DNA of 64,000 nucleotides from Jeotgalibacillus aurantiacus. Lineage in GTDB: Bacteria; Bacillota; Bacilli; Bacillales; Jeotgalibacillaceae. The notes beneath the pieces are model-generated. The model searched no databases and was not told the DNA's origin. It saw only the letters and a program-made list of their open reading frames with translations. Both the position numbers and the translations under genes were made by a program. This document shows positions 31,797-48,769 of the stretch, piece after piece. Where the stretch lies: contig NZ_JACNMS010000001.1 in assembly GCF_020595125.1 (NCBI RefSeq), positions 868,001 to 932,000 of the forward strand, read 5' to 3'. The stretch's first letter is position 1, and each line of letters begins with the position of its first letter.

Positions 31797-34700
31797 ATGG
31801 TCTTTAACAAAGAATCTGAGTTCGAAGAATCTCTAATTGAAGTACTCTCGCATAAAGGATGGGAATCTAAGATCCTGAAAAATCCCTCAGAAGAAGATTT
31901 GATAAACAACTGGGCGGATATTCTATTTGAAAACAACAGGGGTATTGATCGTTTAAATGATTTCCCTTTAACTAGGGGTGAGATGCAACAGATTATGGAA
32001 CAGGTCAACACGCTACGGACTCCTTTGAAATTAAACGGCTTTATCAATGGAAGAACAGTAGCAATTATTCGTGATAACATCGATGACGTTTTGCACTTTG
32101 GAAAAGAGGTTAGCCTCAAGATTTATGACCGACGTGAAATTGCTGCAGGACAAAGTCGTTATCAAATTGTACAACAACCCAAATTTAAAAGTAAGTCCAA
32201 AATATTAAATGACCGTCGCGGTGATTTGATGCTCCTAATCAATGGTATGCCAGTTATACATATCGAGCTGAAACGCAGCGGCGTTTCGGTTAGTCAGGCG
32301 TGTAATCAGATAGAAAAATACTCCACAGAAGGAGTCTTCACTGGAATATATTCGCTGATACAAATATTTGTTGCTATGGAACCAGAAGAAACTGTTTATT
32401 TTGCTAATCCTGGAACGGAAAGAAAATTTAACAAGGATTTTTATTTTCATTGGGCAGATTTTAATAATGAGCTGATCAATGACTGGAAAGATATTGCATC
32501 ATCACTACTTTCCATTCCTATGGCACACCAACTTATTGGCTTTTACACTGTAGCAGATGATTCTGATGGTGTTTTAAAAGTGATGCGTAGTTACCAATAC
32601 TATGCAGCAAACGCCATTTCTGATCGTGTTTCAAAAACTAATTGGGATGGTCGCAATAGGCTCGGCGGGTATGTTTGGCATACTACAGGCTCCGGCAAGA
32701 CCATGACTAGCTTCAAATCAGCACAACTTATTGCAAACTCAAAGGATGCCGATAAGGTTATCTTTCTGATGGACAGAATTGAACTCGGAACTCAGTCTTT
32801 AAAAGAATATCGCAGCTTCGCAGATGAAAATGATTCCGTTCAAGCTACTCAAGATACCATTACTTTAATATCAAAACTAAAAAGCACAGACCCTGCAAAT
32901 ACTCTTATAGTCACTTCTATACAGAAAATGAGCAATATCAAAAGTGAGGAAGGCAGCATATGTGCTTATGATATAGAGATAATGAGTTCTAAGAGAATTG
33001 TCTTTATCATAGATGAAGCACATCGCTCGACATTCGGAGAAATGCTAACGGATATTAAGTGTTCTTTTCCATCTGCCGTTTTCTTTGGTTTTACAGGAAC
33101 ACCTATTCAAGATGAAAACCAAAAGAAAATGAACACTACATCCACTATCTTTGGTGATGAACTACACAGATATAGCATTGCTGATGGTATTCGTGATAAG
33201 AATGTTCTTGGATTTGACCCATACAAAGTACTGACTTATAGAGATAGGGATGTTAGGAGAGCTGTAGCTTTGTTACAGGCAAAAGCCAATTCTGTTGAAG
33301 AAGCCCTTGCTGATTCTAAAAAGCAGGAAGTCTTTTATAGATTCATGGATTCTTCTCAAATAAAAATGGCAGGTTATGTAGGTGAAGATGGAAATTATGT
33401 TAAAGGTATAGAAGATTATTTGCCGACAACCCAATATCAGACGGAAGAACATAAGAATATGGTTGTTAAGGACATTGCTGACAACTGGCTGACATTAAGT
33501 CATAATAGCAAGTTTCATGCAATTTTGGCTACAAGCAGTATACCAGAAGCAATTCACTACTATCGGTTAATAAAAAAAGAAATTGCCGAATTAAAGGTCA
33601 CGTGCCTATTAGACCCAACTATAGACAATAACGGTGGACTTGCTTTGAAGGAGGACGGTCTAATCGAAATAATTGAAGATTATAATGATAGATATGAGCA
33701 AAAATTTAGTCTAAAGAACTTCAATAAATTAAAAAAAGACATCGCATCACGCCTTGCTCACAAAGAGCCATACAAGTTGCTCGAAAGAACTCCAGAAAAA
33801 CAGCTAGATCTTATAATTGTAGTCGATCAGATGCTTACAGGATTCGATTCAAAGTGGATTAACACTCTTTATCTGGACAAGAGACTTCGGTATGAAAATA
33901 TAATACAAGCATTCTCACGTACAAATCGTTTGTTCGGACCGGACAAGCCTTTTGGAACCATTAGATATTATAGGTATCCGCATACAATGGAACAAAACAT
34001 AGAAAAAGCTGTGAAGCTCTACTCTGGCGATAAACCTATTGGATTATTTGTAGAAAAGCTTGAGTATAATCTAAACAAACTTAATTCTATATTTGATGAT
34101 ATCAGTACGCTATTCACTCGGTCCAGTATCTCTAACTTTGAAAAGCTTCCAGATGACCGTTCAGAACGCGGAAAATTTGCTTTACTATTCAAATTAATGA
34201 ATAACTATCTGGAAGCTGCAAAAATTCAAGGGTTTACATGGAATCAGTCAACTTACAAGTTCAGCCATGGCCGTGGCAAACCCAGAAGTAAGGTCGAAAT
34301 GGATATTGATGAAAACACCTATCTGGTGTTGGCGATGCGTTATAAAGAGCTCTTTGGAGACAGCAACGGAAGTAGAGGTGAGGACGTTCCATTTGAAATA
34401 GATGGCTACCTAACAGAGATTGATACTGGGAGAATCGACTCGGATTACATGAACTCTCGATTTGAAAAATTTTTAAGAATACTTATACAAGATGATGTTA
34501 ATGTAACTGAAATGAGGAAGACACTTGATGATTTACATAAGTCATTTTCTATATTGACACAACAACAACAAAAGTATGCCAACATCTTTCTTCACGACGT
34601 AGCGAGCGGAAATGCAAGAATAGAGAGCGGCAAATCTTTTAGAGATTACATAACTGAATATCAATTCAAGGCTAAGAATGATCAGATCCAAAGTATTTCT

Positions 34701-34949
34701 CGAATTTTGGGAGTGGATGAGAGTAAACTCCGTAATCTTATGATTGCAAAGGTAAATGAAGCAAATATTAATGAGTTTGGTCGATTTGATGATTTGAAGG
34801 CCTCGGTTGACAGAGTCAAGGCTAAAGAATATTTCGAAACAATGGAAAACGTAAAACTACTACCATTTAAAATCAACATAAAAGTTCACAATTTGCTTCA
34901 AGAGTTTGTTCTTAAAGGAGGATACGATATCGAAGAGCTGAAGGAGTAG
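31797..34949 (+). CDS. hsdR: Type I restriction endonuclease/translocase subunit
   Basis: 1050 residues, normal for HsdR. The N-terminal nuclease domain has the PD-ExK-type D143 and E157-L-K159 (IHIELKRSG). A superfamily 2 motor follows with Walker A HTTGSGKT (295-302) and DEAH (406-409), plus GFTGTPI and MLTGFDSKWINTLYLDK. The C-terminal helical part contacts the methylase. AGGAGG precedes ATG 31797 by a suitable spacer, 14 nt after hsdS. All catalytic motifs look intact, so the system is predicted to restrict unmodified DNA. Confidence 0.95.
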   Translation: MVFNKESEFEESLIEVLSHKGWESKILKNPSEEDLINNWADILFENNRGIDRLNDFPLTRGEMQQIMEQVNTLRTPLKLNGFINGRTVAIIRDNIDDVLHFGKEVSLKIYDRREIAAGQSRYQIVQQPKFKSKSKILNDRRGDLMLLINGMPVIHIELKRSGVSVSQACNQIEKYSTEGVFTGIYSLIQIFVAMEPEETVYFANPGTERKFNKDFYFHWADFNNELINDWKDIASSLLSIPMAHQLIGFYTVADDSDGVLKVMRSYQYYAANAISDRVSKTNWDGRNRLGGYVWHTTGSGKTMTSFKSAQLIANSKDADKVIFLMDRIELGTQSLKEYRSFADENDSVQATQDTITLISKLKSTDPANTLIVTSIQKMSNIKSEEGSICAYDIEIMSSKRIVFIIDEAHRSTFGEMLTDIKCSFPSAVFFGFTGTPIQDENQKKMNTTSTIFGDELHRYSIADGIRDKNVLGFDPYKVLTYRDRDVRRAVALLQAKANSVEEALADSKKQEVFYRFMDSSQIKMAGYVGEDGNYVKGIEDYLPTTQYQTEEHKNMVVKDIADNWLTLSHNSKFHAILATSSIPEAIHYYRLIKKEIAELKVTCLLDPTIDNNGGLALKEDGLIEIIEDYNDRYEQKFSLKNFNKLKKDIASRLAHKEPYKLLERTPEKQLDLIIVVDQMLTGFDSKWINTLYLDKRLRYENIIQAFSRTNRLFGPDKPFGTIRYYRYPHTMEQNIEKAVKLYSGDKPIGLFVEKLEYNLNKLNSIFDDISTLFTRSSISNFEKLPDDRSERGKFALLFKLMNNYLEAAKIQGFTWNQSTYKFSHGRGKPRSKVEMDIDENTYLVLAMRYKELFGDSNGSRGEDVPFEIDGYLTEIDTGRIDSDYMNSRFEKFLRILIQDDVNVTEMRKTLDDLHKSFSILTQQQQKYANIFLHDVASGNARIESGKSFRDYITEYQFKAKNDQIQSISRILGVDESKLRNLMIAKVNEANINEFGRFDDLKASVDRVKAKEYFETMENVKLLPFKINIKVHNLLQEFVLKGGYDIEELKE

Positions 34950-35065: not shown

Positions 35066-35179
35066 TATAAGAGATAAAAAGCGTAGACCAATTGAAGAAT
35101 GATGAACAGTTAGACGAATCATTAAAGTATTACATTAACTAATACGACACCTGATATTTGCGAGAAACTTTACTCCTTA

Positions 35180-35338
35180 ACCCCAAAATACCAATATACT
35201 CGCTCAAGCAGCACTAGCCTTATCCAGTTAATGCGGAAACGTAATTTCACAAAACGATAGCGAACAGTGACTCTGTAGCACAACTTTTCAGTTAGGCCGA
35301 GTTAGTCTGAAATAAAGAAGCCGATTTTTTCCGCAGTT
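35180..35338 (-). pseudogene. rlmH: Decayed copy of the rlmH 3' region (older remnant)
   Basis: Read on the minus strand this stretch gives KIGFF-x-x-x-stop-LGL and SF-x-x-x-TFPH-stop-LDK. This matches intact Rlm[13 protein letters not shown] and [13 protein letters not shown] in order and spacing, with frameshifts and at least three stops. DNA similarity to 44871-45030 is roughly 60 percent by eye. It has the same orientation as rlmH at 44848 and marks an internal boundary of the island, between the hsd operon and the C5-methyltransferase module. Like the copy at 42298, it has a stop at the Gln after TFPH. Confidence 0.7.
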
Positions 35339-36084
35339 GTTTAGGAGTAGGACTTCGATTAAATTTATGGTTCACTATGCTCTAAGGCATTTGGTGTATT
35401 CGGGACAGCTCTGCTTGAGGTATTTTACTATCAGTTTGTAGATCGTAATAATGTTAATTTTTATGGTGACTTTTCCAACGAGATAAGCGATTAAAGTGTA
35501 TTATTTTTAAAGAGAGTATGCTTTTATACTGAAAAAGTTCTTCACTGATTAGGCATGGCTTTATGAGCTCCAGAACAAAGATCTTTTGTGACGAGAATAG
35601 CCATTCGTTACAAAATTTAAGTAGCCTAGGATTGCTGTATTGGCATATAATTAACCAGGCTCAAGTGATTATCTAAACACAATTTAGCGCTTTGAATGAT
35701 TCAATATCTTATTTTCTATATTTTTACTAATAGTTTATCTGGGCACATTAGATGCTTTCGTAATAACAATAGCGTAATGAAAAAGCTACTGTATAAATAA
35801 AATCATCTTTCACACCTTTGAGATATTTGAGCACAATACAAAGTTGCAGCTTTTAATGAACTCTTGAAGTATTAGTATTAAAAAGTGTTAGATGATCTAA
35901 TCAACCCTGTTTAATTACTATAGATAAGAAATTAAGCAGTTAATTCAAGTGATTAAATACCGTGGAAATTGTGCTAAACTTGTGCTTAGAAAGAGCAGGT
36001 ACCTCTTATATATACTTTTAAAAAACATTCAAAAAGATATAGTATAGTAGTGTAAATATTTACTTAAAGAGAGGCTATGTCATA
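35339..36084. other. About 750-bp AT-rich non-coding gap
   Basis: No open frame or hairpin of note except possible continuation of the rlmH remnant for a few bases. A promoter for the methyltransferase probably lies near 36040 (TATAGTATAGTAG). The length of unexplained decayed DNA suggests former gene content. Confidence 0.4.
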
Positions 36085-37251
36085 GTGAAAAAACCCTTAG
36101 CAATAGATATATTTTGTGGGGCTGGAGGTGTTTCTCAAGCCTTAAAAAATTTCTTCAATATCATTACAGCAGTGGAATACGACCCTATAATAGCAAAAAC
36201 CTATGAGTTAAATCACGGAAGTGAACACCTCATTATTAATGATGTGGAAAAATTGACCAAAGAAGAGTTTATAAAAATGACCAACTTAAAAGTAAAGCAG
36301 CTTGATTTACTAGTATCAACACCTCCTTGTCAAGGTTTCTCAAGACACTCACGAAAAAAAGCCTTTGATAGTAATGATCATAGAAATAAATTAATTTTAG
36401 AAACAACCAGAATTTCTGATATATTCCATCCTAAATATATTTTTTTTGAGAACGTAGATAATATAATTAACTATAAAGTTTTTCATACATTCTTAAGAAG
36501 GTTAGTAAATTTGAATAAGTTAGGATACAAAAGAAACGAAAATCGTCCCTCTTATCATATCAATTTCAAGGTTGTCAGTGTTTACAAATACGGTGTACCA
36601 CAAAAGCGACGGCGCTTAATACTTTTAGCAAAAAGAATAGATGACTATCCATTTGTTGAGGGCGTTATCAAATTCCCCAAGGACGGCACCCCTATAATTG
36701 GATCGCCTCTTAATGTTTGGCCAAAAGAAAAATCATCTATATTATTGGGAGAACATCTATCTAAGTATGAACTTAAACCAATTGAAGCCGGCGAAACTGA
36801 TCCATCTGACCCACTGCATACTTGTAGAAACCTCTCTGCACTAAATTTGAAAAGGATCAAATCTACTCCTCATGATGGAGGCAGTAGAAACGCGTGGCCT
36901 GAAGAACTACTTCTAAATTGTCATAAGAAAAGTAATGTCAGTTTTGGAGATGTGTACGGTAGAATGGATAGAAACGATTTTGCTCCAACGATAACTTGTG
37001 GTTGTATTAGTTATACTAAAGGACGTTTTGGGCATCCAACTGAGGATCGAGCAATAAGCCTAAGAGAAGCAGCTTTAATTCAAACATTTCCGTCAGATTA
37101 TAAATTTACAGGCGAACTATCGGATAAACCTTATAAAGGTTCCAAAGATAACATGGCAACTCAAATTGGAAATGCTGTTCCGGTGAAGTTAGCCGAGACT
37201 TTTATTAAAGAGTTATATTCAGATCTTATAAACGAAAAAAACAGGGAATGA
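36085..37251 (+). CDS. DNA (cytosine-5-)-methyltransferase
   Basis: 388 residues from GTG 36085. C5 methylase motifs in order: I DIFCGAGGVS, IV STPPCQGFS with nucleophile C82, VI FENV (E122), VIII VPQKRRRLILLAKR, IX SLREAALIQTFP and X QIGNAVPVKLA. The target-recognition region between VIII and IX (about 200-315) is of ordinary size. It has no restriction endonuclease beside it; instead it converges on the receiver/dual-GHKL pair, with a shared terminator. It is likely either the modification half of a defence system or a solitary methylase. Confidence 0.93.
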   Translation: MKKPLAIDIFCGAGGVSQALKNFFNIITAVEYDPIIAKTYELNHGSEHLIINDVEKLTKEEFIKMTNLKVKQLDLLVSTPPCQGFSRHSRKKAFDSNDHRNKLILETTRISDIFHPKYIFFENVDNIINYKVFHTFLRRLVNLNKLGYKRNENRPSYHINFKVVSVYKYGVPQKRRRLILLAKRIDDYPFVEGVIKFPKDGTPIIGSPLNVWPKEKSSILLGEHLSKYELKPIEAGETDPSDPLHTCRNLSALNLKRIKSTPHDGGSRNAWPEELLLNCHKKSNVSFGDVYGRMDRNDFAPTITCGCISYTKGRFGHPTEDRAISLREAALIQTFPSDYKFTGELSDKPYKGSKDNMATQIGNAVPVKLAETFIKELYSDLINEKNRE

Positions 37252-37268
37252 GTGCTTCCCTGTTTTTA
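37235..37268. terminator. Bidirectional terminator between the C5-methyltransferase and receiver genes
   Basis: AAAACAGGGAA pairs with TTCCCTGTTTT around a 7-nt loop, with A/T runs on both sides. The methylase stop codon lies in the loop. Confidence 0.85.
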
Positions 37269-37275
37269 TTTTACC

Positions 37276-38979
37276 TTAAATCAAATTTTTAAAGTTCGAT
37301 ATATAATTCGATTCTTTATAAAAAATTTCATTAATACCAGCTCTCGATTGATAAGCTATATAGCGATTTATAATATTTTGAATATAATCTTTCTTTAAAG
37401 TAATTAATGCTCTTTTTTCCTCTAACTCAGATAAACTAATAGTACAAGTATCATAAAAATTCCATTTTATATAAAATAAATCACTTTCTAATGGTGCAGG
37501 CATAAAATAACAGTTGTTTTTTGTGTTTTTTAATTCATCTATTTTAGGTTTTTGAACTTTTTCACCTACTAAAAATTTAAATTTATTTCCTACCTTTTCT
37601 GGTCTTTCTATATCACATAGAGGAGTTATACATAACAAATAGTCTTCTCCAGATAAATTATTAATGATACTTCCTGTTTTAATACTGTTATCTGATGGTG
37701 AAATAAACTTAAGAATCTTAGTAAAGGCTAAGGTTTGTTTTTGGAACGATTCAACAAATTCGTCTTCTTTTTCAGAACTATAATCATCTATAAATAATGT
37801 AAAGAATAAAACATCGTTGGTTAAGCTGAAAAATTTTTTTTGATCGGCTACTATCTCTTTCTCTACATGTTCCTTTAAAAAACTAGATATGTTATTTTTC
37901 AAATCGTCAAGAGAATTAGATTTTTCGATAATTTTTATGAATTCAGTTCTAAAATCGCTCTTTTTAAATAAGTTCGGAATTTTATTTTTTGACGGTTTAG
38001 TATCGATATTAAGCATTTTCATTAATGGTTGAGTATAAGCTTCGTTATAGTCAGTCAAACTTTTTATTAGATTACGCCTTTTCATAGCGAATAGAAAATT
38101 ACTTTCGTTTGAATTAAACTCAGAGTTATCACCTTCTATAACACTAGAAATTAAAGTGTCATTGATGAAAACAGAAATCTTGTCGTTCTTTAAATTTGAT
38201 GTTACCATTTGCGTAAATAATACTTTTTCAAAAGGAGTATTAAAACTAGTTATAGAACTATTCAAGTTTTTATTCAGGAGGTTTGCACTCTCCATTAAAT
38301 GTAGCGCTAAGCTTTTATTGGTTAACATTATTTTTGAAATGTTTTTTATAATGCTCTCTGGGTCTGCTTTTTTTGTCATGATTATTCCAAACAAAGATTT
38401 AGAATTGACGTTTTCTTTTTCTTCAAAAATAAATAGATCTTCACCATTTTCATCTTCCAATATTTTTTTACACAAAAATGATCCTTCTAATTTCTTTTGC
38501 ACACTATGGACATCCTCTTGCGTATAAATAACAGCACACTTAAGTCCTTTTTTTGTTGCTACAAAGCTATTAATGAATTCAATCGCTCTTTCTCCCATTG
38601 AAGACTTATCAATAGACGAAGGTTCCAAATTCCAATCCACTATTAATAATTTTGAATTATTTAGTGCGTTTCTTAATATGTTAATATCATCCTTTTCAAC
38701 ATACTTCCATGGCAATGTGACAAACCCTCCACGAATTAACTCTTGATATGTTTCAAACGGAGTGCTTAAGTTTTCATTATAGTTAATTTCGGAAGCAATT
38801 GCAGCCTCTGATTTAGAATCGTCATCATAAAATTCATATTCACCTATTTTAAGATTTGCGTTTGAAAATGTTTCTTGGCTAACAGATTCAGAAGGACTCA
38901 ATTCCAAATTATCATCAATTATTACAGCACTATTGAAATAATCTTTAACAATATTTTCCACTATACTTTGCTTAGTCAT
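37276..38979 (-). CDS. Receiver-like protein with unknown C-terminal domain
   Basis: 567 residues. The N-terminal 210 residues look like a two-component receiver fold: acidic pair D22-D23 (VIIDDNLE), phospho-acceptor-like D115 (LLIVDWNLE), T153 (VIYTQED) and K203/K204 (IIMTKKADPES), in the right order. The spacing between the first two is enlarged by an acidic insertion. The rest is helical, followed by a C-terminal domain with LLCITPLCDIERP and NCYFMPAP, not assigned. No DNA-binding domain is evident. It shares an 8-nt ATGACTAA overlap with the upstream dual-GHKL gene, so the two are translationally coupled and probably act together as sensor/ATPase and response partner. Confidence 0.75.
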   Translation of the reverse strand: MTKQSIVENIVKDYFNSAVIIDDNLELSPSESVSQETFSNANLKIGEYEFYDDDSKSEAAIASEINYNENLSTPFETYQELIRGGFVTLPWKYVEKDDINILRNALNNSKLLIVDWNLEPSSIDKSSMGERAIEFINSFVATKKGLKCAVIYTQEDVHSVQKKLEGSFLCKKILEDENGEDLFIFEEKENVNSKSLFGIIMTKKADPESIIKNISKIMLTNKSLALHLMESANLLNKNLNSSITSFNTPFEKVLFTQMVTSNLKNDKISVFINDTLISSVIEGDNSEFNSNESNFLFAMKRRNLIKSLTDYNEAYTQPLMKMLNIDTKPSKNKIPNLFKKSDFRTEFIKIIEKSNSLDDLKNNISSFLKEHVEKEIVADQKKFFSLTNDVLFFTLFIDDYSSEKEDEFVESFQKQTLAFTKILKFISPSDNSIKTGSIINNLSGEDYLLCITPLCDIERPEKVGNKFKFLVGEKVQKPKIDELKNTKNNCYFMPAPLESDLFYIKWNFYDTCTISLSELEEKRALITLKKDYIQNIINRYIAYQSRAGINEIFYKESNYISNFKNLI

Positions 38980-41900
38980 TTTGGTTTACCTCCGATATAG
39001 CTACTTTATCACTAAATTCGATACAGAAGCATGCCCCCGATAAGTTTTTAAGTGTATCATTTGAATTAACAGCAAAAAAGCTGTGCCCGTTATGTTCTAG
39101 AATATCTCTTGATAAGAATAGCCCCAAACCTCTTCCACCTACTTTTTTTGTAAAATAAGGTTCAAATACAAATGGTACATCTACTAGATTAATACCCGGG
39201 CCTGTGTCTTGTATAAATAATCTTAATTTCTCAGAATCCATATAAAAATGAATCTGCCTATTTTCTTGATTAAGTAGCCAATATATTGAGTTAGAAATTA
39301 TATTAACAAGAGGCGTGAATAAAACGGATTCTACCTCTTTTATAACAATACTCTCAGGAATCTCATTTATTATCTTAATATTATATCTTTTTATATCTGT
39401 ATAAAAATATTCCATTAATGTGTCAATAAACTTGTTTAGTTTAATCTCACTTTTGACATTTCGAGATTGTCTATATAGTGGACTCATTCTAGTATGCAGT
39501 CGTTCCAATGAACGAAATGCATTATTGCTCTTTTGCAAAACGGAACTTAAAGATGTGTTTTTAAGTTTTGAATCTAATATCTTGTAATTTCTCTTAATTT
39601 CTTGATAAAGAGCGTTGAATTCGTGACTAGTTAGTTCAGCAGCTAAACCTACAGCTGATATATCTCGATACATATCTACTTCTTTCTTTAATATACCAAT
39701 TAGCTGATCATCTGTGTAATTTACATTATCTATAATATTGTTAAAGTTTTTTATAGTATTTTCTGTTTTCCTATGAAATTGCTTTGATGTAATAGCCTGA
39801 CCCGCTCTAAATAATTTCTGTTGTAGCATTAACTTCTTTTTTTTGATATGCTCTATTTTATACTTTGCTTCGTCTAATAATAAGGAGAAATCCGTGAATA
39901 AATCTCCCGATTTCAAATTTTTCTTTATAAAAGTTAGCTCTTTTCGACTTAAAGATAATGTTTGATACTCTTCTTCAAAATATTCAAACTCAACTTTGAG
40001 GTTTCTATTATACTCACTCAAAATACTATTAGTTATTGAATTGAGTTCCTCAATGATTTTTTCTTGATTGATTTGTATTATATTTTCCATAATTCTTGAA
40101 ATCGACTCAATCTCACTTTCTAAGCTATCGATTTGAGCAATCACATCATTTACAGTTGCATTGTCTGATACCAAGCTTTTTTCATATCTCGAGATTGCAG
40201 AATCTATTTCTTTTTGAATAACTTCTTGAAAATATACTTCGAGTCTTGCTTTCTCTTTTTTTATTTCACTATTTAATTGATCAATACTTTCTAACAAAGT
40301 ATTTGGGAGTGTATATCTCAAATTTGGAGTTATTTCTAATGAATTTATAGAATCTATAATTTCATCACTTTTTAACCTTAAATTTATAAAGCTATCACCA
40401 ATATATTTCCTAAAATTAATATTTTCTTTTTTTACATTCTCTCTGAATGTATCAAGTATACTTTCAAATTCATTCTCAAAACTTTCTAACATTTTTTTTA
40501 AATCGAAACTATTATTTTTAACTTTTTTTTGTATTTCTTTCAAGTATTTTTTTTGTCTATTTTCTTCCTGTTTTTGTGCTTCAAGTTGTCCTTTCTCAAT
40601 TTCGAACCTCTTTAATCTTGCTTTTCTTCTTCCTTTTCTCTCATCCTTAGTTTCTAGAAAATCATACGCCCACCATTCAAGCATGTTAAAGGTAACCTCT
40701 TTAAAGTAAAGGTATTGTTGATTTTCTATAAAACCTTCTCTACTCGATTTATCAACTAATTTATTATTATCTTTTTTACTTATTTCAATGTATCCAAACA
40801 TTCTTCTAAAGCTAAAAGGGAAAGTAGACGCTCTGTTACTTCTTTGTGCTTCCAGTTCAAGATAATCATTTCCAGGTTCTCCGTATGGTAATATTCGAAG
40901 TCCATCTCTAAATACATAAATCCCACCGATTTTTTTCAGTTTTTCAGTTATACTTTTATGAGAATCTTTACTCAACGCTGAATTATGTTGCTCGCCTTCA
41001 ACAAAAAACCAGTTTATTGATAATGGACCACAATCCTTAATATTATTGGTATCTAACCCTTGAGTTAAAACAACATTTTTGACGTTAAACTCCTCCGTAT
41101 TTGATTCACTGTACTTAACTTTACAAACACCCGAAAATCTCCCGTTACATATCTCACCTTTAATTGAATAGTCATAAAAGTTAATATCTTCTTCACTGAA
41201 CCAAGTTTGGTCTCTTAAATTAAACCCGTTTATTATTATTGAAGGTATAAAACTCATTTCATTTTGATCATCCTTCATGCCAAATCTTGCAAAAGGATTC
41301 TCAAAAGAATAAAGAGTTCCCAACAACCTAGCATGTCTTCTTTCCATACTTTTGTCTTTTGTTTTTGAAAGAAAAGAGTCCCAATTCCACATATATTCCA
41401 TGTGACTAATATGAAAAACTGTTCCACTACCCATTTGCTCAATCTTATATAATTCGTTTTTAACTTTATTAGAAATAGTATACTCTTCAATTTGTGTAGA
41501 AACTTTTCGAACTATATCTTTATTCCAAACATGTTCGTTTGAAAAATTTTCTAAAAGTTTATTCTTAAAAAAACTAAATTCATTTTCGATGAAACCTATT
41601 ATTTCTTTAAAACTTCCAAATTTTTTTACAGGTAGATTAATATCCTCTAAAAACATGTTTTCATTTCTAAATAACTCCCAGTGCAAATAAAGAATAGACC
41701 ATTCACTATTCCTCTTTGAAACAAGAAGTAATTGATCTCCTAATAAGGATATTGCTAATCGACCAATGCCTTTTTCTCCAATTTTCACTCGCCCTTTTCT
41801 CGTTTTTTCAAAACTATTCGTTTTGGAATGAGTTCCTAAAGTAAGCCATTTCTCTTCTATATCAATTCTGGTCATGCCTTCACCATCGTCAGAAATTATA

Positions 41901-42055
41901 ATTTGATTTTTAGTAGTATCTATATCAATCGTACCGAAATTTGCATCTGCGTCGTATGAATTACGAAGTAATTCAGATATAGCAGTTACTTCATCACGAA
42001 TTTGTTGCTTCCCCAACAAATCAACAGCTCTTGCCCTGGTCCTAAAAGTAGCCAT
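38972..42055 (-). CDS. Large ATPase with two GHKL domains (MORC/Hsp90-like and histidine-kinase-like)
   Basis: 1027 residues after AGGGGGGTAAC. The N-terminal GHKL domain has SELLRNSYDAD (E28, N32, D35), DDGEGM (56-61) and GEKGIGRLA (93-101), as in Hsp90/MutL/MORC ATPases. A transducer-like region follows, then a long charged coiled coil (about 480-790). The C-terminal quarter is a second GHKL unit of histidine-kinase type: H811 in AELTSHEFNALYQE (possible H-box), N918-NIISNSIYWLL, DTGPG (950-954) and GGRGLGLF (973-980). One polypeptide thus holds two ATP-binding folds. With the coupled receiver-like gene and the nearby C5 methylase it resembles a defence or signal-relay module. Autophosphorylation at H811 is inference. 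Confidence 0.8.
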   Translation of the reverse strand: MATFRTRARAVDLLGKQQIRDEVTAISELLRNSYDADANFGTIDIDTTKNQIIISDDGEGMTRIDIEEKWLTLGTHSKTNSFEKTRKGRVKIGEKGIGRLAISLLGDQLLLVSKRNSEWSILYLHWELFRNENMFLEDINLPVKKFGSFKEIIGFIENEFSFFKNKLLENFSNEHVWNKDIVRKVSTQIEEYTISNKVKNELYKIEQMGSGTVFHISHMEYMWNWDSFLSKTKDKSMERRHARLLGTLYSFENPFARFGMKDDQNEMSFIPSIIINGFNLRDQTWFSEEDINFYDYSIKGEICNGRFSGVCKVKYSESNTEEFNVKNVVLTQGLDTNNIKDCGPLSINWFFVEGEQHNSALSKDSHKSITEKLKKIGGIYVFRDGLRILPYGEPGNDYLELEAQRSNRASTFPFSFRRMFGYIEISKKDNNKLVDKSSREGFIENQQYLYFKEVTFNMLEWWAYDFLETKDERKGRRKARLKRFEIEKGQLEAQKQEENRQKKYLKEIQKKVKNNSFDLKKMLESFENEFESILDTFRENVKKENINFRKYIGDSFINLRLKSDEIIDSINSLEITPNLRYTLPNTLLESIDQLNSEIKKEKARLEVYFQEVIQKEIDSAISRYEKSLVSDNATVNDVIAQIDSLESEIESISRIMENIIQINQEKIIEELNSITNSILSEYNRNLKVEFEYFEEEYQTLSLSRKELTFIKKNLKSGDLFTDFSLLLDEAKYKIEHIKKKKLMLQQKLFRAGQAITSKQFHRKTENTIKNFNNIIDNVNYTDDQLIGILKKEVDMYRDISAVGLAAELTSHEFNALYQEIKRNYKILDSKLKNTSLSSVLQKSNNAFRSLERLHTRMSPLYRQSRNVKSEIKLNKFIDTLMEYFYTDIKRYNIKIINEIPESIVIKEVESVLFTPLVNIISNSIYWLLNQENRQIHFYMDSEKLRLFIQDTGPGINLVDVPFVFEPYFTKKVGGRGLGLFLSRDILEHNGHSFFAVNSNDTLKNLSGACFCIEFSDKVAISEVNQND

Positions 42056-42297
42056 GTTACCCCCCTATTTTACTTCATGAAGTTAATAGATTCCTTTTAA
42101 ATATACATCATATTTTACAGCTATTTCTTGGAAAAAAAAAGAATTAAAAAATTTCTCTTCCCGTTTCATAGAATAAATTAATACAATCTACTAAAATTAT
42201 CTTTAGTTTATTTTACATTAGTTATCTTTGCTAATAGTGATTAGCTTTATATTAATATAATTTTTAAACTTATAATTTTATTTAATCCAGATCATTT

Positions 42298-42404
42298 ATG
42301 ATAAGGTCCTTTCCTCATAATCCTAAACCTCCGATCCCCCTGCTCCAACAGCATCAGCTTATCCAACTAATGCGGAAACGTCATCTTAGATCTAGGCGTG
42401 AGCT
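42298..42404 (-). pseudogene. rlmH: Decayed copy of the rlmH 3' end (younger remnant)
   Basis: On the minus strand this reads KMTFPH-stop-LDKLMLLEQ-x-x-RRFRIMRKGPYHK-stop, matching the intact RlmH end [31 protein letters not shown] with an early stop. DNA identity to 44853-44945 is about three quarters by eye, beginning exactly at the shared TTATGATA that encodes the terminal YHK-stop. Same orientation as rlmH. It lies between the dual-GHKL gene and the CPBP gene and looks like an attachment-site scar. Confidence 0.85.
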
Positions 42405-42460
42405 ATTTAGTATATAGGTCGATTAAATGAACTGGATTACTTAACAAGAAAGTTTTAAAC

Positions 42461-43114
42461 TTACATCGGCGGAACATAAATATTCAAAAACACAGGCACC
42501 GTCATAATCCCGATATTGACCAAGAAGTGTGAGAATATTGCCCACCTCAAGCTCCTGGTTTTAAAATAAATGACCGACCACACAATCCCTAATAGTAATA
42601 AATTGATGAACACATGATAATGGCTATTTGCAATGGAAAATACGCCCCACATTAATGGGTGGCTCAGCATAAAAAATAATGTAGAATACCCTACGCTGAT
42701 CCATTTAGGAAACCACTCTATGGCAGCATCTAATAAAAGACCTCGCCAATATAGCTCTTCAAACCAGGGGTTAATGAGCGCAAAGGCAACCCAAAGAACA
42801 ATGATTAATGGCGAATCAAGTAAATGAACGTTCATGATTAAAATGGACATAGGGAACAAACCGAATATTAAAGCGAGACTGATTGATAGTTTTGAAGGTT
42901 TGGATTTCTTTAACCAGTCTTTTACCCGTTTGTTTCCTTTGAAAAAAGCGATACATAATGCAAGGGAAGTCCAGTAAACGAGCGCCAGTGGGATCCATGC
43001 CCATTCATTGATAAAACGAGAAAAAATAGTGGCTGTTACAAAGCCGATTAAAATGATAACCAGTGGCGATAAAAGAACGGCGATTCTCGTGTTTTTACTG
43101 ATCTCTAACAGCAT
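42461..43114 (-). CDS. CPBP family intramembrane metalloprotease
   Basis: 217 residues with about six to eight membrane helices. The abortive-infection/CAAX-protease signature is present: E119-E120-x-x-x-R124 in NPWFEELYWRGLLLD, then a histidine in FFMLSHPLMW and another in IFSHFLVNIG. Members include Abi-type and bacteriocin self-immunity proteins. The ATG lies within the end of the TetR gene (20-nt overlap) with GGGGAGG upstream, so regulator and protease are one operon. Substrate unknown; a role in resistance to a phage or peptide is possible. Confidence 0.85.
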   Translation of the reverse strand: MLLEISKNTRIAVLLSPLVIILIGFVTATIFSRFINEWAWIPLALVYWTSLALCIAFFKGNKRVKDWLKKSKPSKLSISLALIFGLFPMSILIMNVHLLDSPLIIVLWVAFALINPWFEELYWRGLLLDAAIEWFPKWISVGYSTLFFMLSHPLMWGVFSIANSHYHVFINLLLLGIVWSVIYFKTRSLRWAIFSHFLVNIGIMTVPVFLNIYVPPM

Positions 43115-43727
43115 CCTGATCCTCCCCGGCTCTCATCAAAAATACACTTAGTATGATATTTGCATCAGGCATAGGACATTCATGCCACTGAATTTTGTTG
43201 ATCGCTAACCCCTGAATAAATGCATAATAAGCGACAGCTAATTTCATCGGATCCTCTTGAATGATTTCACCTTCGGCTTGCCCTTCTATGATGATCGGAA
43301 TCGTGGCTGCTACTGGCGAGTTGGCACTGTTGGTTAAAATCTCTCTTACTTCTTCCGGCACTGCATCTGATGTGCTTGCCTGGATCATGATGAGGAAAAG
43401 ATAGATGCGATCTCCAGTGACAATCCCCTTTAAAATTGTTTCTGTCATCCACTTTAATTTTTCAATAGGTGTTCCTTTGAGTTGTTTCGCTTCGTTTACA
43501 ACCTCTATAGAACTTTCAGAAGCTTTTTTGACTAAGGTGACAAAGATTTGTTCCTTAGATTTGAAATAGTGATACACAAGTCCATGACTTAACTGGGCTT
43601 CCTGCGCGATATCACTAATTTTAGCGGCCGCCATCCCTCTGCGGGCAAACACTTTGGCAGCAGCATTTAATATCTGCTCTCTTCTTGCATCTCTAATCTC
43701 AACATTCTTGTGTTCATCTCTCGGCAT
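43095..43727 (-). CDS. TetR/AcrR family transcriptional regulator
   Basis: 210 residues. The N-terminal helix-turn-helix is typical (REQILNAAAKVFARRGMAAAKIS then SHGLVYHYFKSKEQIF), followed by a ligand-binding helical domain. AGAGAG and GAGGT lie before ATG 43727. It heads a two-gene operon with the CPBP protease and probably represses that operon from the roughly 90-bp region upstream; no clear palindromic operator was picked out by eye. Confidence 0.9.
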   Translation of the reverse strand: MPRDEHKNVEIRDARREQILNAAAKVFARRGMAAAKISDIAQEAQLSHGLVYHYFKSKEQIFVTLVKKASESSIEVVNEAKQLKGTPIEKLKWMTETILKGIVTGDRIYLFLIMIQASTSDAVPEEVREILTNSANSPVAATIPIIIEGQAEGEIIQEDPMKLAVAYYAFIQGLAINKIQWHECPMPDANIILSVFLMRAGEDQDAVRDQ

Positions 43728-43821
43728 CTCTCTACCTCATTTTCGATTGAATAATCAGTCAATATAATCATAGAAAATATTTCTAATTTTTACAACCATT
43801 ATTTTTGAGATCATAAAAAAT

Positions 43822-43852
43822 AGGACATCCATTTGTGTGTGGAGGATGTCCT
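43822..43852 (-). terminator. Terminator of the Fic gene
   Basis: AGGACATCC pairs with GGATGTCCT; on the minus strand the stem is followed by ATTTTTTATG. Confidence 0.75.
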
Positions 43853-43968
43853 TTGATAAATCATTGTTTGAAAATTCATCTAAAGTATCTGGATCTGAGA
43901 CTGTTGTTTAACTTCATTTTGTATCATATATAAAGTGAATGACTTTTAATAATGATGTTAATAGCAGC

Positions 43969-44694
43969 TTATACTGTACTCAAATACAGGTCTAGTGACG
44001 CCTCTACTTCTTTGGCAAGCAACTCAATAAAATCGTTATAATCCTCTGTTGTATGGGCTTTATCTAGTGCATTATAGTAATCCAACGGATTTTCTACCCG
44101 GATAATGATTGGGGAGTAACCCGATTTCATTAACTCCAGATTTAGTAACATCCTTGAAGTACGCCCGTTGCCATCAATAAAAGGATGAATGCCTACAAAG
44201 ATGGCATGTAGCATTGCTCCTCTCACGATTGGATGTAAAGCTTGTGCATCGCGATCATACCAAGTCATTAAGTGATTCATTTGTTCCTGAATGTTAAATG
44301 GTGGAGGCGGTGTATGAACAGCTCCTGAAATAAAGACTTGCTCATTATGATAAACACCTGCAAATTCATCATCAATCCCTTTTAAATTTAGGCGATGCAA
44401 TTTTTTGATTTGCCACTCCGACAAAGGCTCATCTTTACGAACAATGTCCTCAACATAAGTAATCGCACTTCTGTGATTGATCACTTCTAAATGCTCTCGC
44501 ATCGTCTTACCACCGACCGTAATCCCTTCAAGGACTACTTTCATTTCTTTAATTGTTAATGTATTTCCTTCAATCGCATTGGAATGATACGTCCATTCTA
44601 AAAATAACTTTTCCCTCAAGCTTTGGACTGTGTATTTAGGTAATGGCCGCTTAGCATCAAGCTGTTGCTTTTTCAAATCAATTTGTCCTAACAT
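43969..44694 (-). CDS. Fic family protein (probable AMP-transferase)
   Basis: 241 residues. The catalytic Fic motif HPFIDGNGRTSR is complete at 170-181, so adenylyltransfer to a protein hydroxyl is expected. An N-terminal inhibitory helix with S38-N-A-I-E42-G-N matches the S/TxxxE(G/N) motif of class II self-inhibited Fic proteins. The flap strand QVFISGAVHTPPPP precedes the active site. No separate antitoxin gene is needed or seen. It is the gene nearest rlmH, inside the last module of the island. Target unknown. Confidence 0.9.
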   Translation of the reverse strand: MLGQIDLKKQQLDAKRPLPKYTVQSLREKLFLEWTYHSNAIEGNTLTIKEMKVVLEGITVGGKTMREHLEVINHRSAITYVEDIVRKDEPLSEWQIKKLHRLNLKGIDDEFAGVYHNEQVFISGAVHTPPPPFNIQEQMNHLMTWYDRDAQALHPIVRGAMLHAIFVGIHPFIDGNGRTSRMLLNLELMKSGYSPIIIRVENPLDYYNALDKAHTTEDYNDFIELLAKEVEASLDLYLSTV

Positions 44695-44847
44695 CGTTTC
44701 ATCGCCTTTAGTTAGAAGAGTTCTTACTAATGATCAAAATGTAAATTAGGCTGAAATAGCATCAGCACCTCAAATTATTCACTTATATCTATCATCGACG
44801 TTCCCATTAGGATCGAATCATCGTTTTGTTATTCGAATCAACTGCTC

Positions 44848-45327
44848 TTACTTATGATACGGCTCATTCCTCACAATCCTAAAACTCCGATAAACTTGCT
44901 CCAGCAACACCAGCTTTATCAACTGATGCGGGAATGTCATCTTTGAAAACGACAATGCATAGTTACTCCGCTGCTTCACTTCATCACTCAGGCCAAGTGA
45001 ACCGCCGATGATGAAGGCGATTTTGCTTTTGCCGTAGGTGGCGAGCTGGTCGAGTTCTTTGGCGAGTTGCTCGGAGGTGAGCTGTTTGCCATCGATTTCA
45101 AGGGTGATGACGTGGGTGTCGGGTGCGATTTTGGCGAGGATGCGTTCGCCTTCTTTTTGTTTGACGATGGTCATGTCGGCTTCGCTCAGGTTTTCGGGTG
45201 CCTTTTCGTCCGGGACTTCGATTAAGTCGATGGTGGCATAGGCACTCAGGCGTTTCGTGTATTCGGCAATGCCCTGCTTCAGGTATTTTTCCTTCAGCTT
45301 GCCGACTGTGATAATACTGATTTTCAT
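44848..45327 (-). CDS. rlmH: 23S rRNA (pseudouridine-1915-N3)-methyltransferase RlmH
   Basis: 159 residues, full length. SPOUT methylase with [15 protein letters not shown] at the N-terminus, the knot region [14 protein letters not shown] and the conserved end [11 protein letters not shown]...PYHK. GGAGGG lies ahead of the ATG. In Staphylococcus this gene (orfX) is the integration site of SCC elements, which insert at its last codons. Here the terminal YHK-stop region is duplicated at 42298 and in more decayed form at 35180, downstream in the same orientation. The gene itself looks intact and functional. Confidence 0.97.
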
Positions 45328-45488
45328 GGTGATCCCTCCGGCGCGATAAGTGGTTTAAGTGTATCATTTTTTGGTGGGGTTGCGGGTAGCTCATCACTTC
45401 TTAGGGGTGAGCTTTTTGAGTTTATAGTAACGAATCTTTCTGTAGTGGGTATGGCATCCGCTCCAGGCTGCTTTGGAGATGCTAAGGA

Positions 45489-46475
45489 TTGTTTAACAAG
45501 ACTCTTTTATCATCTAACCTTCATTTAGGAACCCGAATGATTCACCATATACCATCACGTGATTCATTTTACCGAAACCTTTTATCTGACTTTTCCGTAA
45601 ACTTTTTATATGACATAGTGAGGTGGGTGGGGAATGTGGATAGGATTGAATTGATCAATCTGGTGCCGAAGTTTTTGGCTTTTTATGAAAGGGCTCGTGT
45701 TGAAGGTATGGATCGTGATGAGCGATGGGATTTATGGAAAGAACACTATCATTTTGCGGCGGTACCTCCAGGTGATGAAGGTGAAAAAATGGCGAGAAAG
45801 CTATTGGATGACGCCTGGGATCAATATACTGAGCAGGTCGATTACATAAGGAGTTGGCAGCCGGAGCAAAAATCGGTTGAAAACTATTTATCAAAAGTAA
45901 AATCTTTATTGGGGTGTACAGAATCAATTAATTTGGTTTTAGTTTATTTTGTTGGCGGATTTGAAAGGAATGCTTTTGTTGCACCTTATGACGAGGAGCG
46001 ATTGGCCATGTGCATTCCCGTTGAATGTGGAGACTCTGATATTACGCTTTCTCACGAGTTAACGCATATCGTCCATTCAGCCACTGCCAATCTAACAGCA
46101 GGCTGGGAAAGAACGATCGCTTCAACCATTTTACGAGAAGGTTTGGCCACACAAGTCAGCAAACATTTGGTACCTGGTAAAGAAGATCAATGTTATATCG
46201 AACACAAAGAAGGATGGTTCGACTCCTGTCAATCAAGCAGAACAGACATCATAAAAGGAATCATGCCCTATTTAGATGACTCATCATCAGAATTAATCAC
46301 CAGGTTCACATTTGGCACTGGAACCACAAACCACGAACGAGAAGTCTATTTTGTTGGTTGGGAACTTGTGAATCTTCTATTAGAAGAAGGCACCACATTA
46401 GAGGAAATCGCAGCGATAAAAGAAGATGATATGCCGGATTATATAAGAGACGTTTACCCCAGGTTGTTAAGCTGA
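45489..46475 (+). CDS. Putative zinc-dependent protease, DUF2268-like
   Basis: Up to 328 residues; ATG 45489 or, with AGGAAC upstream, ATG 45537 (312 residues). HELTHIVH (189-196 counted from the first ATG) supplies the HExxH zinc ligands, and ILREGLATQ about 30 residues later supplies the probable third ligand glutamate, as in DUF2268 gluzincins. No signal peptide, so probably intracellular. Its 5' end is repeated after the gene (45497-45555 versus 46607-46664), a sign of a lost tandem copy. It is divergent from rlmH. Confidence 0.78.
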   Translation: MFNKTLLSSNLHLGTRMIHHIPSRDSFYRNLLSDFSVNFLYDIVRWVGNVDRIELINLVPKFLAFYERARVEGMDRDERWDLWKEHYHFAAVPPGDEGEKMARKLLDDAWDQYTEQVDYIRSWQPEQKSVENYLSKVKSLLGCTESINLVLVYFVGGFERNAFVAPYDEERLAMCIPVECGDSDITLSHELTHIVHSATANLTAGWERTIASTILREGLATQVSKHLVPGKEDQCYIEHKEGWFDSCQSSRTDIIKGIMPYLDDSSSELITRFTFGTGTTNHEREVYFVGWELVNLLLEEGTTLEEIAAIKEDDMPDYIRDVYPRLLS

Positions 46476-46606
46476 CGGGGTTTAATTGAATAAGCACGAC
46501 ATAAAGAAAGCTTGGGATCTAACCAAGCTTTTTTGTGTTTAGTAGGTTGGATCTGTTCTTTCACGGGGTTGGCAGCCGTTAAAAGAATGTTAAGAATTAA
46601 TCAATA

Positions 46607-46664
46607 AAACTCTTTTATTACCTAACCACCATTTAGCGAACCGAATGATTCACCATATACGTCC
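46607..46664 (+). repeat. Direct repeat of the protease gene's 5' end
   Basis: ACTCTTTTAT, CTAACC, CATTTAG, CGAATGATTCACCATATAC appear here and at 45497-45555 in the same order and spacing, with a few differences. The coding sequence breaks down right after the ATGATTCACCATATAC start region. This gap (46476-46768) otherwise holds only the nitroreductase ribosome site. Confidence 0.7.
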
Positions 46665-46768
46665 CGGTGAACCCGAGCACGTTCCTCAAACAGATCTTTT
46701 TCATTCACCTGAAGGGTTGGCGTAGAATGTAATTTGTTTATGAAAATCGGAGAAAGGTGTTGTGAGAG

Positions 46769-47443
46769 ATGAATAGTACGTCAACAAAAAAGCAGGAGAT
46801 TTTGGATGCTTATCTGTTCAGACACGCCACAAAGGCTTTTGATCCGAGCAGGAAAATTTCAGATGAGGATTTTGATTTTATTTTAGAGGCGGGAAGACTT
46901 TCACCGAGCTCTGTCGGGTACGAGCCGTGGCGATTTCTGGTGGTTCAGGATATGGAGGTCAGGGAAAAGCTGCGGGAAGTCAGTTTTGGTGCGCAGGGTC
47001 AGTTCCCTACGGCCAGCCACGTTGTGATTCTTCTTGCGCGTAAAGGCGCACGGGCTGATTCGGATTATGTACAAAACCTGTTAAGGAATGAAAAGAAGGT
47101 TCCGGAGTCTGCGATCGAGAAGATCACGGAGGCTTACAGACAGTTCCAGGAGGTCGACCTGAACTTATACGAAAGCGACCGCGCACTCTTCGACTGGGCC
47201 AGCAAGCAGACCTACATTGCCCTTGGTAACATGTTAACGGCTGCCGCTCAAATCGGGATTGATTCATGTCCGATTGAAGGATTCAATATGGAAAAAGCAA
47301 CAGAAATTCTTGTAAACGAAGGATTATTAGACCCGGAAGAATTCGGCATCTCCGTCATGGCCGCTTTCGGATTCCGCGACAAAGATCCCGAGAGCCCAAA
47401 ACGCAGACTCAGTCAAAAAGAGGTTGTGCAGTGGGTTGAATGA
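46769..47443 (+). CDS. NAD(P)H-dependent nitroreductase, YfkO-like
   Basis: 224 residues. FMN-binding signatures of the NfsB class: FRHATKAFDP, RLSPSSVGYEPWRFLVV, ASKQTYIALGNMLTAAAQIGIDSCPIEGF. These are close to Bacillus YfkO, which reduces nitro-compounds and quinones. GGAGAAAGG lies upstream. It has its own terminator; likely a stress or detoxification enzyme of the cytosol. Confidence 0.92.
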   Translation: MNSTSTKKQEILDAYLFRHATKAFDPSRKISDEDFDFILEAGRLSPSSVGYEPWRFLVVQDMEVREKLREVSFGAQGQFPTASHVVILLARKGARADSDYVQNLLRNEKKVPESAIEKITEAYRQFQEVDLNLYESDRALFDWASKQTYIALGNMLTAAAQIGIDSCPIEGFNMEKATEILVNEGLLDPEEFGISVMAAFGFRDKDPESPKRRLSQKEVVQWVE

Positions 47444-47488
47444 TGACTTTTAAGCTTGCGTGCAGAGATAACGCAGCACGCTGATAAT

Positions 47489-47523
47489 CCCCGTCCTGAT
47501 TTGATGTAGGACGGGGGTTTTAA
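47489..47523 (+). terminator. Terminator of the nitroreductase gene
   Basis: CCCCGTCCT pairs with AGGACGGGG around a 10-nt loop, followed by GTTTTAA. Confidence 0.85.
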
Positions 47524-47603
47524 TATGGCTATTTTCTAATCTGTTTAAAGTTAGTTCTTGAATGATTCAGGGTGTACATTCCGGCGGATCCTTCTTGTTT
47601 CTT

Positions 47604-48677
47604 TTAAATCAATTTAATTTTTGTTTTAATCCTTCTCATTATTTTCTCCCAGTCACTCATACTTTCAATTGCTGAAACATTTAATACGTCTGATATTTTA
47701 CGCTGTATAATCGGAAAGAAATCATTTAAAATAACCTGAAGTAAATTATCAGCATACTTATTGTTTTCTTCAAGTTTTCCTTCTACATAATCAAAGAAAT
47801 TCACCTGTTCATTGTTGTAGTGTAATAGATTCCTTAATTTCTTTGTCTCTTTTTGTAGATTCTTTTTGTATATAAGTAACAGCTCATCTAAATCATTCAA
47901 TGTTAAAGCAGAGTATTGTTGCGATGCTCTATCTTTAATGTCAATTAAATTTTCCATTGTTTGATAAAATCTAATAGAAGATAGTCTTAAAAGTAAATAT
48001 TTATCTAGGCTAAATTCTTTTTTATCATGATTCAAATGTTTTTTTATCCAGAGACAACTTGAAATCTCATTTTGTATTATAAGTAATCTCATTAAGCAAA
48101 CATTTGTAACTAAATCTTCTTTAAAAAGTCTTTTATGCCAAACATCTTTGCACTCATAATCTTCTTGCTGAATAGAAAGTGTTTTATTCGAAGGTAATAA
48201 AACGGGTTGATTAATAGAATCTATAATTACAGCCATATTATTTCCGATTTCTTTAGAGAAGTCTCTTATCCTCCCTTCAGTATCTTTCGAGTTAAAAAAC
48301 GGTGTCTCATCATATACATAAGTAACATACAATGTGCTCCCAACAAGATTACCTCTGTCTAAATAAAATCCTAAGTTATCAATATCATCCCCAAATAAAT
48401 TAAAATGAGTATCAAGTATTTTATTAAAAATGTCTCTATTACTCTTGCCTTGACTGGATTTTATTTTATGACGTATAGGTTCAATTTTTTTATAAATAGC
48501 TATTTCTTCTTTCAAAATCCCATCGCTTTTAAGTACATTTATGATCTCATATAACATTAAACAACTATCACGGAAAAGAGAATATACAGCTACACTATTA
48601 AAATTGTTATCATCATTAAACAAGAGCAATTTTTTTATACCATGCAAATCATGATTAATCGTTTTTAAATAACTCAA
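47604..48677 (-). CDS. AT-rich orphan protein, unknown
   Basis: 357 residues, no family recognised, much richer in A+T and in Lys/Asn/Ile than the surrounding genes, suggesting recent acquisition. It is predicted to be all-helical (KTINHDLHGIKKLLLF, EISSCLWIKKHLNHDKKEF). A segment ETKKLRNLLHYNNEQ recalls the R-N-x-x-x-H type motif of HEPN-like helical bundles, but the spacing is one residue short, so this is weak. No membrane helix. It sits alone with opposite direction to the nitroreductase. Confidence 0.65.
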   Translation of the reverse strand: MSYLKTINHDLHGIKKLLLFNDDNNFNSVAVYSLFRDSCLMLYEIINVLKSDGILKEEIAIYKKIEPIRHKIKSSQGKSNRDIFNKILDTHFNLFGDDIDNLGFYLDRGNLVGSTLYVTYVYDETPFFNSKDTEGRIRDFSKEIGNNMAVIIDSINQPVLLPSNKTLSIQQEDYECKDVWHKRLFKEDLVTNVCLMRLLIIQNEISSCLWIKKHLNHDKKEFSLDKYLLLRLSSIRFYQTMENLIDIKDRASQQYSALTLNDLDELLLIYKKNLQKETKKLRNLLHYNNEQVNFFDYVEGKLEENNKYADNLLQVILNDFFPIIQRKISDVLNVSAIESMSDWEKIMRRIKTKIKLI

Positions 48678-48730
48678 TAAAATTCTCCTTAAATGAACTC
48701 ATATTTTATTACAGTATATAACAAACAGAA

Positions 48731-48756: not shown

Positions 48757-48769
48757 GTTTACTTTGATC

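Follow-up and report, generated by a model that had tools for sequence, protein, structure and literature searches.

Worn copies of rlmH at an SCC-like insertion hotspot in Jeotgalibacillus suggest that incoming islands replaced the gene beside their landing site

Introduction

The gene rlmH, which encodes the 23S rRNA pseudouridine-1915 methyltransferase, is the landing site of SCCmec (SCC, staphylococcal cassette chromosome) and its relatives. A locus of Jeotgalibacillus aurantiacus raises the question of how one chromosome came to hold, downstream of an intact rlmH, two decayed copies of the same gene. The locus lies in a stretch of 64,000 nucleotides (contig NZ_JACNMS010000001.1, positions 868,001 to 932,000; hereafter the window) of a 3.5-Mb Jeotgalibacillus genome, G000. 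An initial annotation of this DNA had drawn on Staphylococcus, which is not the host, and had read both copies as 3' ends of rlmH left by stacked SCC-like elements. Here, we show that one copy is a full-length pseudogene joined to upstream sequence and that the 3' end of rlmH is an insertion hotspot in Jeotgalibacillus. We argue that, on balance, the interval between rlmH and the tRNA-dihydrouridine synthase gene dus is an SCC-like hotspot whose insertions brought replacement rlmH genes while older copies decayed.

In the available text of the literature, SCC-like islands at rlmH are already in print for staphylococci, enterococci and Bacillales, as are composite islands and a form without ccr genes. 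The parts seen of two studies give attachment (att) repeats of about 15-50 bp (PMC4723332, PMC6222049). The staphylococcal interval that receives SCC runs from orfX to orfY and ends at a dihydrouridine synthase gene, according to the accessible sections of PMC4723332, and TATCATAA is described in those of PMC6222049 as the conserved core of SCC and of the Enterococcus cassette chromosome (ECC).

Results

Both decayed copies have the orientation of the intact rlmH at 44848-45327 and lie downstream of it, as the initial annotation had said; the intact gene matches the Pfam family PF02590, and the alignments of both remnants with rlmH by blastn and an rlmH DNA profile stand above background. The middle copy (42296-42390) matches 44852-44946 with 79% identity over 95 bp (E 6e-16); its local score of 112 compares with a maximum of 38.5 in 200 shuffles, and the profile places it at model positions 382-479 (E 3e-18). 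The left copy (35350-35508) matches 45213-45371 with 74% identity (E 7e-22) and gives two profile matches, E 1.6e-15 at model positions 4-115 and E 4.4e-15 at 295-461. As a control, the profile was run on one block-shuffled set made from the window and the loci of 11 relatives, which gave one match at E 1.9. The annotated TFPH-stop-LDK reading holds when the sequence is translated by eye.

That the remnants are 3' ends is true of the middle copy, which comprises the final 98 bp of rlmH. The left copy is the full-length gene together with about 200 bp of upstream sequence: it begins at the start codon and reaches nearly to the stop, while homology to the region upstream of the intact rlmH (U) runs on to about 35703. 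This upstream homology has a score of 57 that none of 2000 shuffles reached. When a dispersed motif at its far end (described below) was left out, the score was 47, which was reached in 0 of 2000 shuffles and at 0 of 1939 random places; the profile E-value of the region is only 0.0024, close to the values that the dispersed motif gives in other places (0.005-0.76). On the right side of the middle copy, 26 bp that resemble sequence upstream of rlmH (42393-42417) may mark the junction of an internal deletion; the match is weak, and its score was equalled in 3 of 2000 shuffles and at 11 of 1959 random places. A DNA tree groups the left fossil with the lineage of the window and its sister genome G009 (local support 0.965) and leaves the placement of the middle fossil without resolution. 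A common origin of both fossils in a single decayed gene found no support: of 84 columns, 15 and 9 are private to one copy each, and they have only one in common, the stop codon, which does not exceed chance.

The length of the left copy bears directly on the view that both remnants are att scars of classic tandem SCC-like elements. Since published att repeats measure about 15-50 bp and the left remnant is a whole gene plus upstream sequence, plain SCC integration cannot have left it: a scar of that length cannot hold the start codon, body and upstream region found at 35173-35703. In favour of the view, the genus has att cores as well as composite islands, and 42292-42309 is one mismatch away from the consensus. 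A classic scar is thus contradicted for the left copy and possible for the middle one, and as an account of the whole locus we consider it improbable. What stands of the SCC-like picture drawn initially is the hotspot, the att cores, the type I restriction cargo and the plurality of events.

The initial annotation overlooked a further copy of U that has no adjoining rlmH. It lies on the far side of a DUF2268-like open reading frame (ORF) from rlmH, where 46587-46660 shows 81% identity by blastn and the profile extends the match to 46525-46672 (E 3e-19). With the dispersed motif left out, 0 of 2000 shuffles reached its score. That the repeat at 46587-46660 is merely a dispersed repeat was ruled out because the motif matches its last part only; a single further long match to this stretch occurs in the genome. 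Also overlooked was probable extra DNA at 45.5-57.1 kb.

Comparison of 12 Jeotgalibacillus genomes shows that the 3' end of rlmH is an insertion hotspot. In the 11 genomes with a complete interval, the distance from the rlmH stop to dus is 1.13, 20.4, 29.1, 29.2, 32.3 (the window), 32.5, 33.3, 34.8, 49.1, 52.4 and 69.4 kb; in the twelfth, G011, rlmH and dus are on different contigs and the interval is partial. The gene content right after rlmH differs across the 12 genomes. None of the 11 window ORFs of at least 100 amino acids between rlmH and msrA has a 50%-identical counterpart in another interval, and counterparts at this level were found for 1/18 ORFs in G009, 11/19 in G003, 9/17 in G001, 7/20 in G006, 4/10 in G008 and 7/49 in G005. 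The comparison with relatives that the initial annotation proposed yielded a near-empty site, the 1.1-kb interval of G007. Among 80 named Bacillales loci, dus was found on the opposite strand downstream of rlmH in four, at 139 bp (Priestia aryabhattai), 903 bp, 5.1 kb and 8.5 kb, in sequence mostly 10 kb long (below 9 kb at 10 loci), and a P. megaterium record has 170 bp between the two genes. The short Priestia distances indicate that an empty form of the site exists. It is likely that the window locus experienced several insertion events.

How much of the window was inserted is less than first proposed. The initial annotation had taken everything left of 35.2 kb as an insertion, which is too wide, as msrA occurs in the same interval in 7 of the 12 genomes. 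AT-rich DNA extends over about 25.3-44.8 kb (G+C is 29-37% over 26-42 kb and 42-50% to its left), and 12.5-24.7 kb is also largely lineage-specific. No tRNA was found in the window, nor any Rfam family that reaches gathering score, and hence no insertion target of the tRNA type.

The 3' end of rlmH carries TATCATAA. In the window, cores of this type lie at 44848-44865 and 42292-42309, and none is recognizable at the left fossil. We scanned the 11 complete intervals and the partial one of G011 with GARCCNTAYCATAARTRA, a pattern written after candidate sites had been seen; with at most one mismatch it occurs four times on the rlmH strand (G000, G004, G005 and G010) and never on the other, and with at most two, seven times against two. 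Several att sites share an inner end like AAATGAGGTTTT, which is also found in Lederbergia and Oceanobacillus. The initial annotation reported no recombinase gene in the window, which was confirmed for PF07508, PF00239 and PF00589 (transposases were not searched). At a site in G010 (contig C33, 51362-55468), four tyrosine recombinase domains occur within 4 kb.

Clear rlmH fossils are present in 3 of the 12 Jeotgalibacillus genomes. In G009, a decayed 5' part of rlmH stands beside the DUF2268-like ORF, with 88.8% DNA identity to the window through that ORF, and is the positional counterpart of the window's rlmH. It is followed by a RidA-family gene (PF01042) and then, downstream, by an intact rlmH whose protein is 98% identical to that of the window. 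In G008, a decayed rlmH lies about 7 kb downstream of rlmH; its 3' part has a profile E of 3e-12 and, by eye, its start region shows a ribosome site and MKISI-stop. A weak fossil match was found in G005 (E 3e-4). In an order-wide draw of 299 genomes, at least two RlmH matches were found in seven: G000 and G008 with their fossils, G083, G168 and G193 with complete island copies, G052 with an inverted relative of 30% identity, and G256, whose second match was not found within the 20 kb examined.

The complete island copies, on islands with a CcrB-related recombinase, belong to Pontibacillus litoralis and two more genomes and are 55%, 58% and 60% identical to the host copy. These observations bear on another explanation, in which rlmH was long ago duplicated locally in tandem and unrelated DNA later entered between the copies. 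Such a duplication would make the left fossil lineage-own, as it is. The explanation requires several duplications as well as independent insertions at a single point; G008 has a fossil too, as does G009 at a different position, and extra rlmH copies travel with islands in other genomes. We regard it as quite unlikely.

Recombinases are found beside rlmH outside the genus. A large serine recombinase directly adjoins rlmH in opposite orientation in 11 of the 80 named loci. Recombinases next to rlmH islands, for which the initial annotation had suggested a search in relatives, are thus present in other Bacillales, and none of the three families was found in the 11 Jeotgalibacillus intervals. For seven recombinases at five of these 11 loci, the best NCBIfam match is staphylococcal CcrB with 197-411 bits, which is below the 900-bit cut-off of the equivalog NF047343 and makes them relatives of CcrB rather than members. 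A second att core was found on two of nine recombinase islands (L155 and L156), 12.3 and 15.6 kb away; the other seven showed none above background in up to 20 kb examined (only 4 kb in one). At two loci (L082, 10337-13673; L099, 10376-13727), two CcrB-related recombinases stand in tandem against rlmH, an arrangement reminiscent of ccrAB. The recombinase match continues antisense into the last 50 bp of rlmH at 11 of 13 loci, the query's own included (L062, L084, L109 and others, about 53 bp); this overlap is partly a consequence of rlmH conservation.

In the three genomes with an island-borne rlmH, the host copies have LV, LV and IF in place of the final HK, and one of them has an in-frame stop. 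The YHK tail is kept in 79 of the 80 named loci, P. litoralis being the exception, and in 10 of 10 recombinase loci with a single known rlmH, nine of which were checked genome-wide for a second rlmH (all except L093). An altered tail thus occurs at 3/3 loci with an island rlmH and 0/10 with a single one (Fisher p 0.0035, which overstates the difference because the 13 loci share element ancestry). In E. coli, RlmH variants H153F and R154A have no detectable activity, according to the part of PMC5430550 seen, and the host copies with altered tails are on this ground probably inactive. From the position of the crossover we infer that the island rlmH takes its last codons from the host att site. 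For this one element family we tentatively propose a swap of tails, in which the host rlmH would lose its catalytic His-Lys tail as the island rlmH gains it, and of which the window might record several rounds. Each insertion would then switch the host from its own enzyme to that of the element, the old gene would decay, and a housekeeping gene would turn over as part of mobile cassettes. Ten further loci have a single rlmH of island type, with an htrC-like gene beside it in five, about 6 kb off in one and not found in four; they show no recombinase and one weak second match (E 0.004). These loci are possible donors and do not prove replacement.

The cargo is listed in Table 1. The kinase, the receiver protein and the C5 methylase stand together at 36085-42055; at E 1e-40 the kinase was found in 1 of the 299 genomes, the window's own, and PADLOC gave no match for kinase or receiver. 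The three genes possibly form an undescribed defence module of signalling type.

Several repeats were noted around the locus. A short dispersed motif (GGGGACGTATATTTTGAATCATTCG-like) occurs at 12570-12603, 13186-13218, 21504-21546 and 46640-46670 and on contig C3 of G000, and another 36 matches (E up to 1) were found, many of them on that contig; the same motif stands at the outer limit of the homology upstream of rlmH. An intergenic repeat of 110-190 bp, internally repetitive with CTCACGAA-type units, has copies some 70-95% alike between many genes at 12569-24773, a stretch that includes a histidyl-tRNA synthetase-like gene (20170-21462); searched with a 216-bp query, the genome gave 47 matches, of which some are to the short GGGGACGTATATTTTGAATCATTCG-like motif only. 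On the 5' side of rlmH, extra DNA is probably present as well (45500-57100). A photolyase gene lies at most about 1 kb upstream of rlmH in three relatives (G002, G008 and G010) and its window relative is at 57119; a GDPD gene lies within about 1 kb upstream in G005, and its relative is at 60711. Of the ORFs beside rlmH in seven relatives, three match the photolyase; among the four others, similar in size, the one tested has no Pfam match.

Table 1. Coordinates of rlmH, its decayed copies, flanking genes and cargo in the window
Feature	Position	Strand	Evidence
dus (tRNA-dihydrouridine synthase), conserved left flank gene	11432-12520	+	PF01207 E 3e-48; 12/12 Jeotgalibacillus genomes
msrA, inner left boundary	24763-25251	-	same interval in 7/12 genomes
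PRA-PH (MazG-like) protein, left end of AT-rich part	25286-25705	+	just over Pfam cut-off
HNH nuclease, cargo C	25724-26716	+	
hsdM, cargo C	27828-30575	+	PADLOC match
hsdS, cargo C	30568-31782	+	
hsdR, cargo C	31797-34949	+	PADLOC match
Full-length decayed rlmH pseudogene (left fossil)	35173-35465	-	blastn, profile, shuffles
Upstream region of left fossil, homologous to U	35473-35703	-	profile E 0.0024; 0/2000 shuffles
C5 cytosine DNA methyltransferase, cargo B	36085-37251	+	PF00145
Response_reg_2 receiver protein, cargo B	37276-38979	-	PF19192
GHKL ATPase / HEF_HK histidine kinase, 1027 aa, cargo B	38972-42055	-	1/299 genomes at E 1e-40
att-like core within middle fossil, 1 mismatch to GARCCNTAYCATAARTRA	42292-42309	-	pattern scan
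Middle rlmH fossil, last 98 bp of gene	42293-42390	-	blastn, shuffles, profile
Possible U remnant joined to middle fossil (weak)	42393-42417	-	shuffle test
CPBP (Rce1-like) protease, cargo A	42461-43114	-	PF02517
TetR regulator, cargo A	43095-43727	-	PF00440
Fic/DOC protein, cargo A	43969-44694	-	PF02661 E 7e-22; PADLOC SoFic E 1e-35
SCC-type att core GAGCCGTATCATAAGTAA, rlmH 3' end	44848-44865	-	sequence
Intact rlmH (23S rRNA pseudouridine-1915 methyltransferase)	44848-45327	-	PF02590 E 3e-60; 98% aa identity to G009
Upstream region U of intact rlmH	45328-45615	-	common to G009; source of upstream profile
ORF between two U copies, DUF2268 (Zn protease) match weak, below Pfam cut-off	45489-46475	+	92% aa identity in G009
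Extra partial copy of U, without adjoining rlmH	46525-46672	-	profile E 3e-19

Discussion

The full-length worn copy of rlmH in the window suggests that incoming islands repeatedly brought a replacement of the gene beside their landing site. In the reading that we favour, successive insertions at the 3' end of rlmH would have delivered further complete rlmH genes with their upstream sequence. Each arrival would have given the cell two rlmH genes, and this redundancy leaves one copy free to decay; one would have stayed in use and the other decayed, sometimes the old one. Of the earlier copies, the window would keep two or more, the pseudogenes at 35.2-35.7 kb and 42.3 kb, with strain-specific cargo of defence type between them; the gene now in use lies at 44.85-45.33 kb. 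The DNA may have been moved at the TATCATAA site by a large serine recombinase related to CcrB, one that worked in trans or was later lost. Both the identity of this enzyme and the site-specific arrival of the window's copies are what we infer from the structure of the locus and from islands elsewhere in Bacillales.

Several observations weigh against insertions having brought replacement genes. None of the 11 rlmH-dus intervals has a PF07508, PF00239 or PF00589 recombinase, and no PF07508 protein was found anywhere in the window's genome, so that the ccr gene by which an SCC is recognized is absent. At up to three mismatches, the att pattern occurs 12 times on each strand. The left fossil has no recognizable att core and shares its upstream sequence with the resident gene, which makes its rlmH lineage-own, unlike the foreign rlmH of Pontibacillus. 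A profile search found no rlmH fossil beside the photolyase at 57.1 kb, and none downstream of rlmH in the ten genomes other than G000 and G008 (G011 in part) apart from the weak match in G005. Complete island-borne rlmH genes are also rare, with 3 cases in 299 genomes that all belong to one element family.

Some of these points are expected if circular DNA of a close relative, with rlmH and the region upstream of it, integrated by homology through a single crossover (Campbell-type integration). Such events would give arrays of rlmH-U, cargo and rlmH-U without a site-specific recombinase, in keeping with the lack of the three recombinase families in the interval, with the missing att core and with a left fossil that includes upstream sequence of the same lineage. 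They leave unexplained the att cores without rlmH in G004, G005 and G010 and the recombinases at the site elsewhere. No mobile vector carrying rlmH was found, a weak negative: RlmH matched 55 plasmid and 25 phage records, and three plasmid records were inspected among the 25 + 15 matches listed. Two of the three have rlmH neighbours that look chromosomal, and the third, an 18-kb linear plasmid record (L185, NZ_CP077937.1) with two rlmH genes in inverted order, is probably an assembly artefact. One query of viral contigs gave no RlmH match. Homologous crossover of circular DNA fits the window nearly as well as site-specific insertion, and structure alone cannot tell the two routes apart because both give the same order of parts. 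We hold Campbell-type integration to be a possible but less likely source of the window's copies.

How does insertion with replacement of rlmH compare with known systems? In the accessible text of PMC4723332, SCC and the composite or pseudo-SCC elements without ccr, such as that of S. stepanovicii, resemble the window in the rlmH-to-dus interval, the TATCATAA-type cores, the tandem modules, the hsd genes and the occurrence of a form without ccr. The window differs from staphylococcal SCC in that one of its repeats is a whole decayed rlmH with upstream sequence and in that its genome has no PF07508 protein. The ECC are CcrAB-type elements with the site and core found here, the 3' end of rlmH and TATCATAA, and the sections seen of PMC6222049 describe no element-borne rlmH, unlike our reading. 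SCC-like islands of Bacillales, whose hosts include Bacillus, Planococcus and Paraliobacillus, share the site, the recombinase class, the composites and the conflict genes, and the portion seen of PMC10061031 does not mention an rlmH of their own or decayed rlmH copies, unlike what we describe. In the accessible portions of the open-access literature, we found no report of a duplicated, element-borne or serially replaced rlmH.

If insertions did bring replacement genes, elements that carry their own rlmH and disable the resident would explain how a conserved housekeeping gene is replaced across species. This may be relevant to divergent rlmH alleles found at a single locus, such as the two enterococcal alleles that share less than 75% DNA identity (PMC6222049, in the part available). 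It would also show a way in which an island may penalize its own loss. Past insertions at this medically relevant site can be read from the decayed copies.

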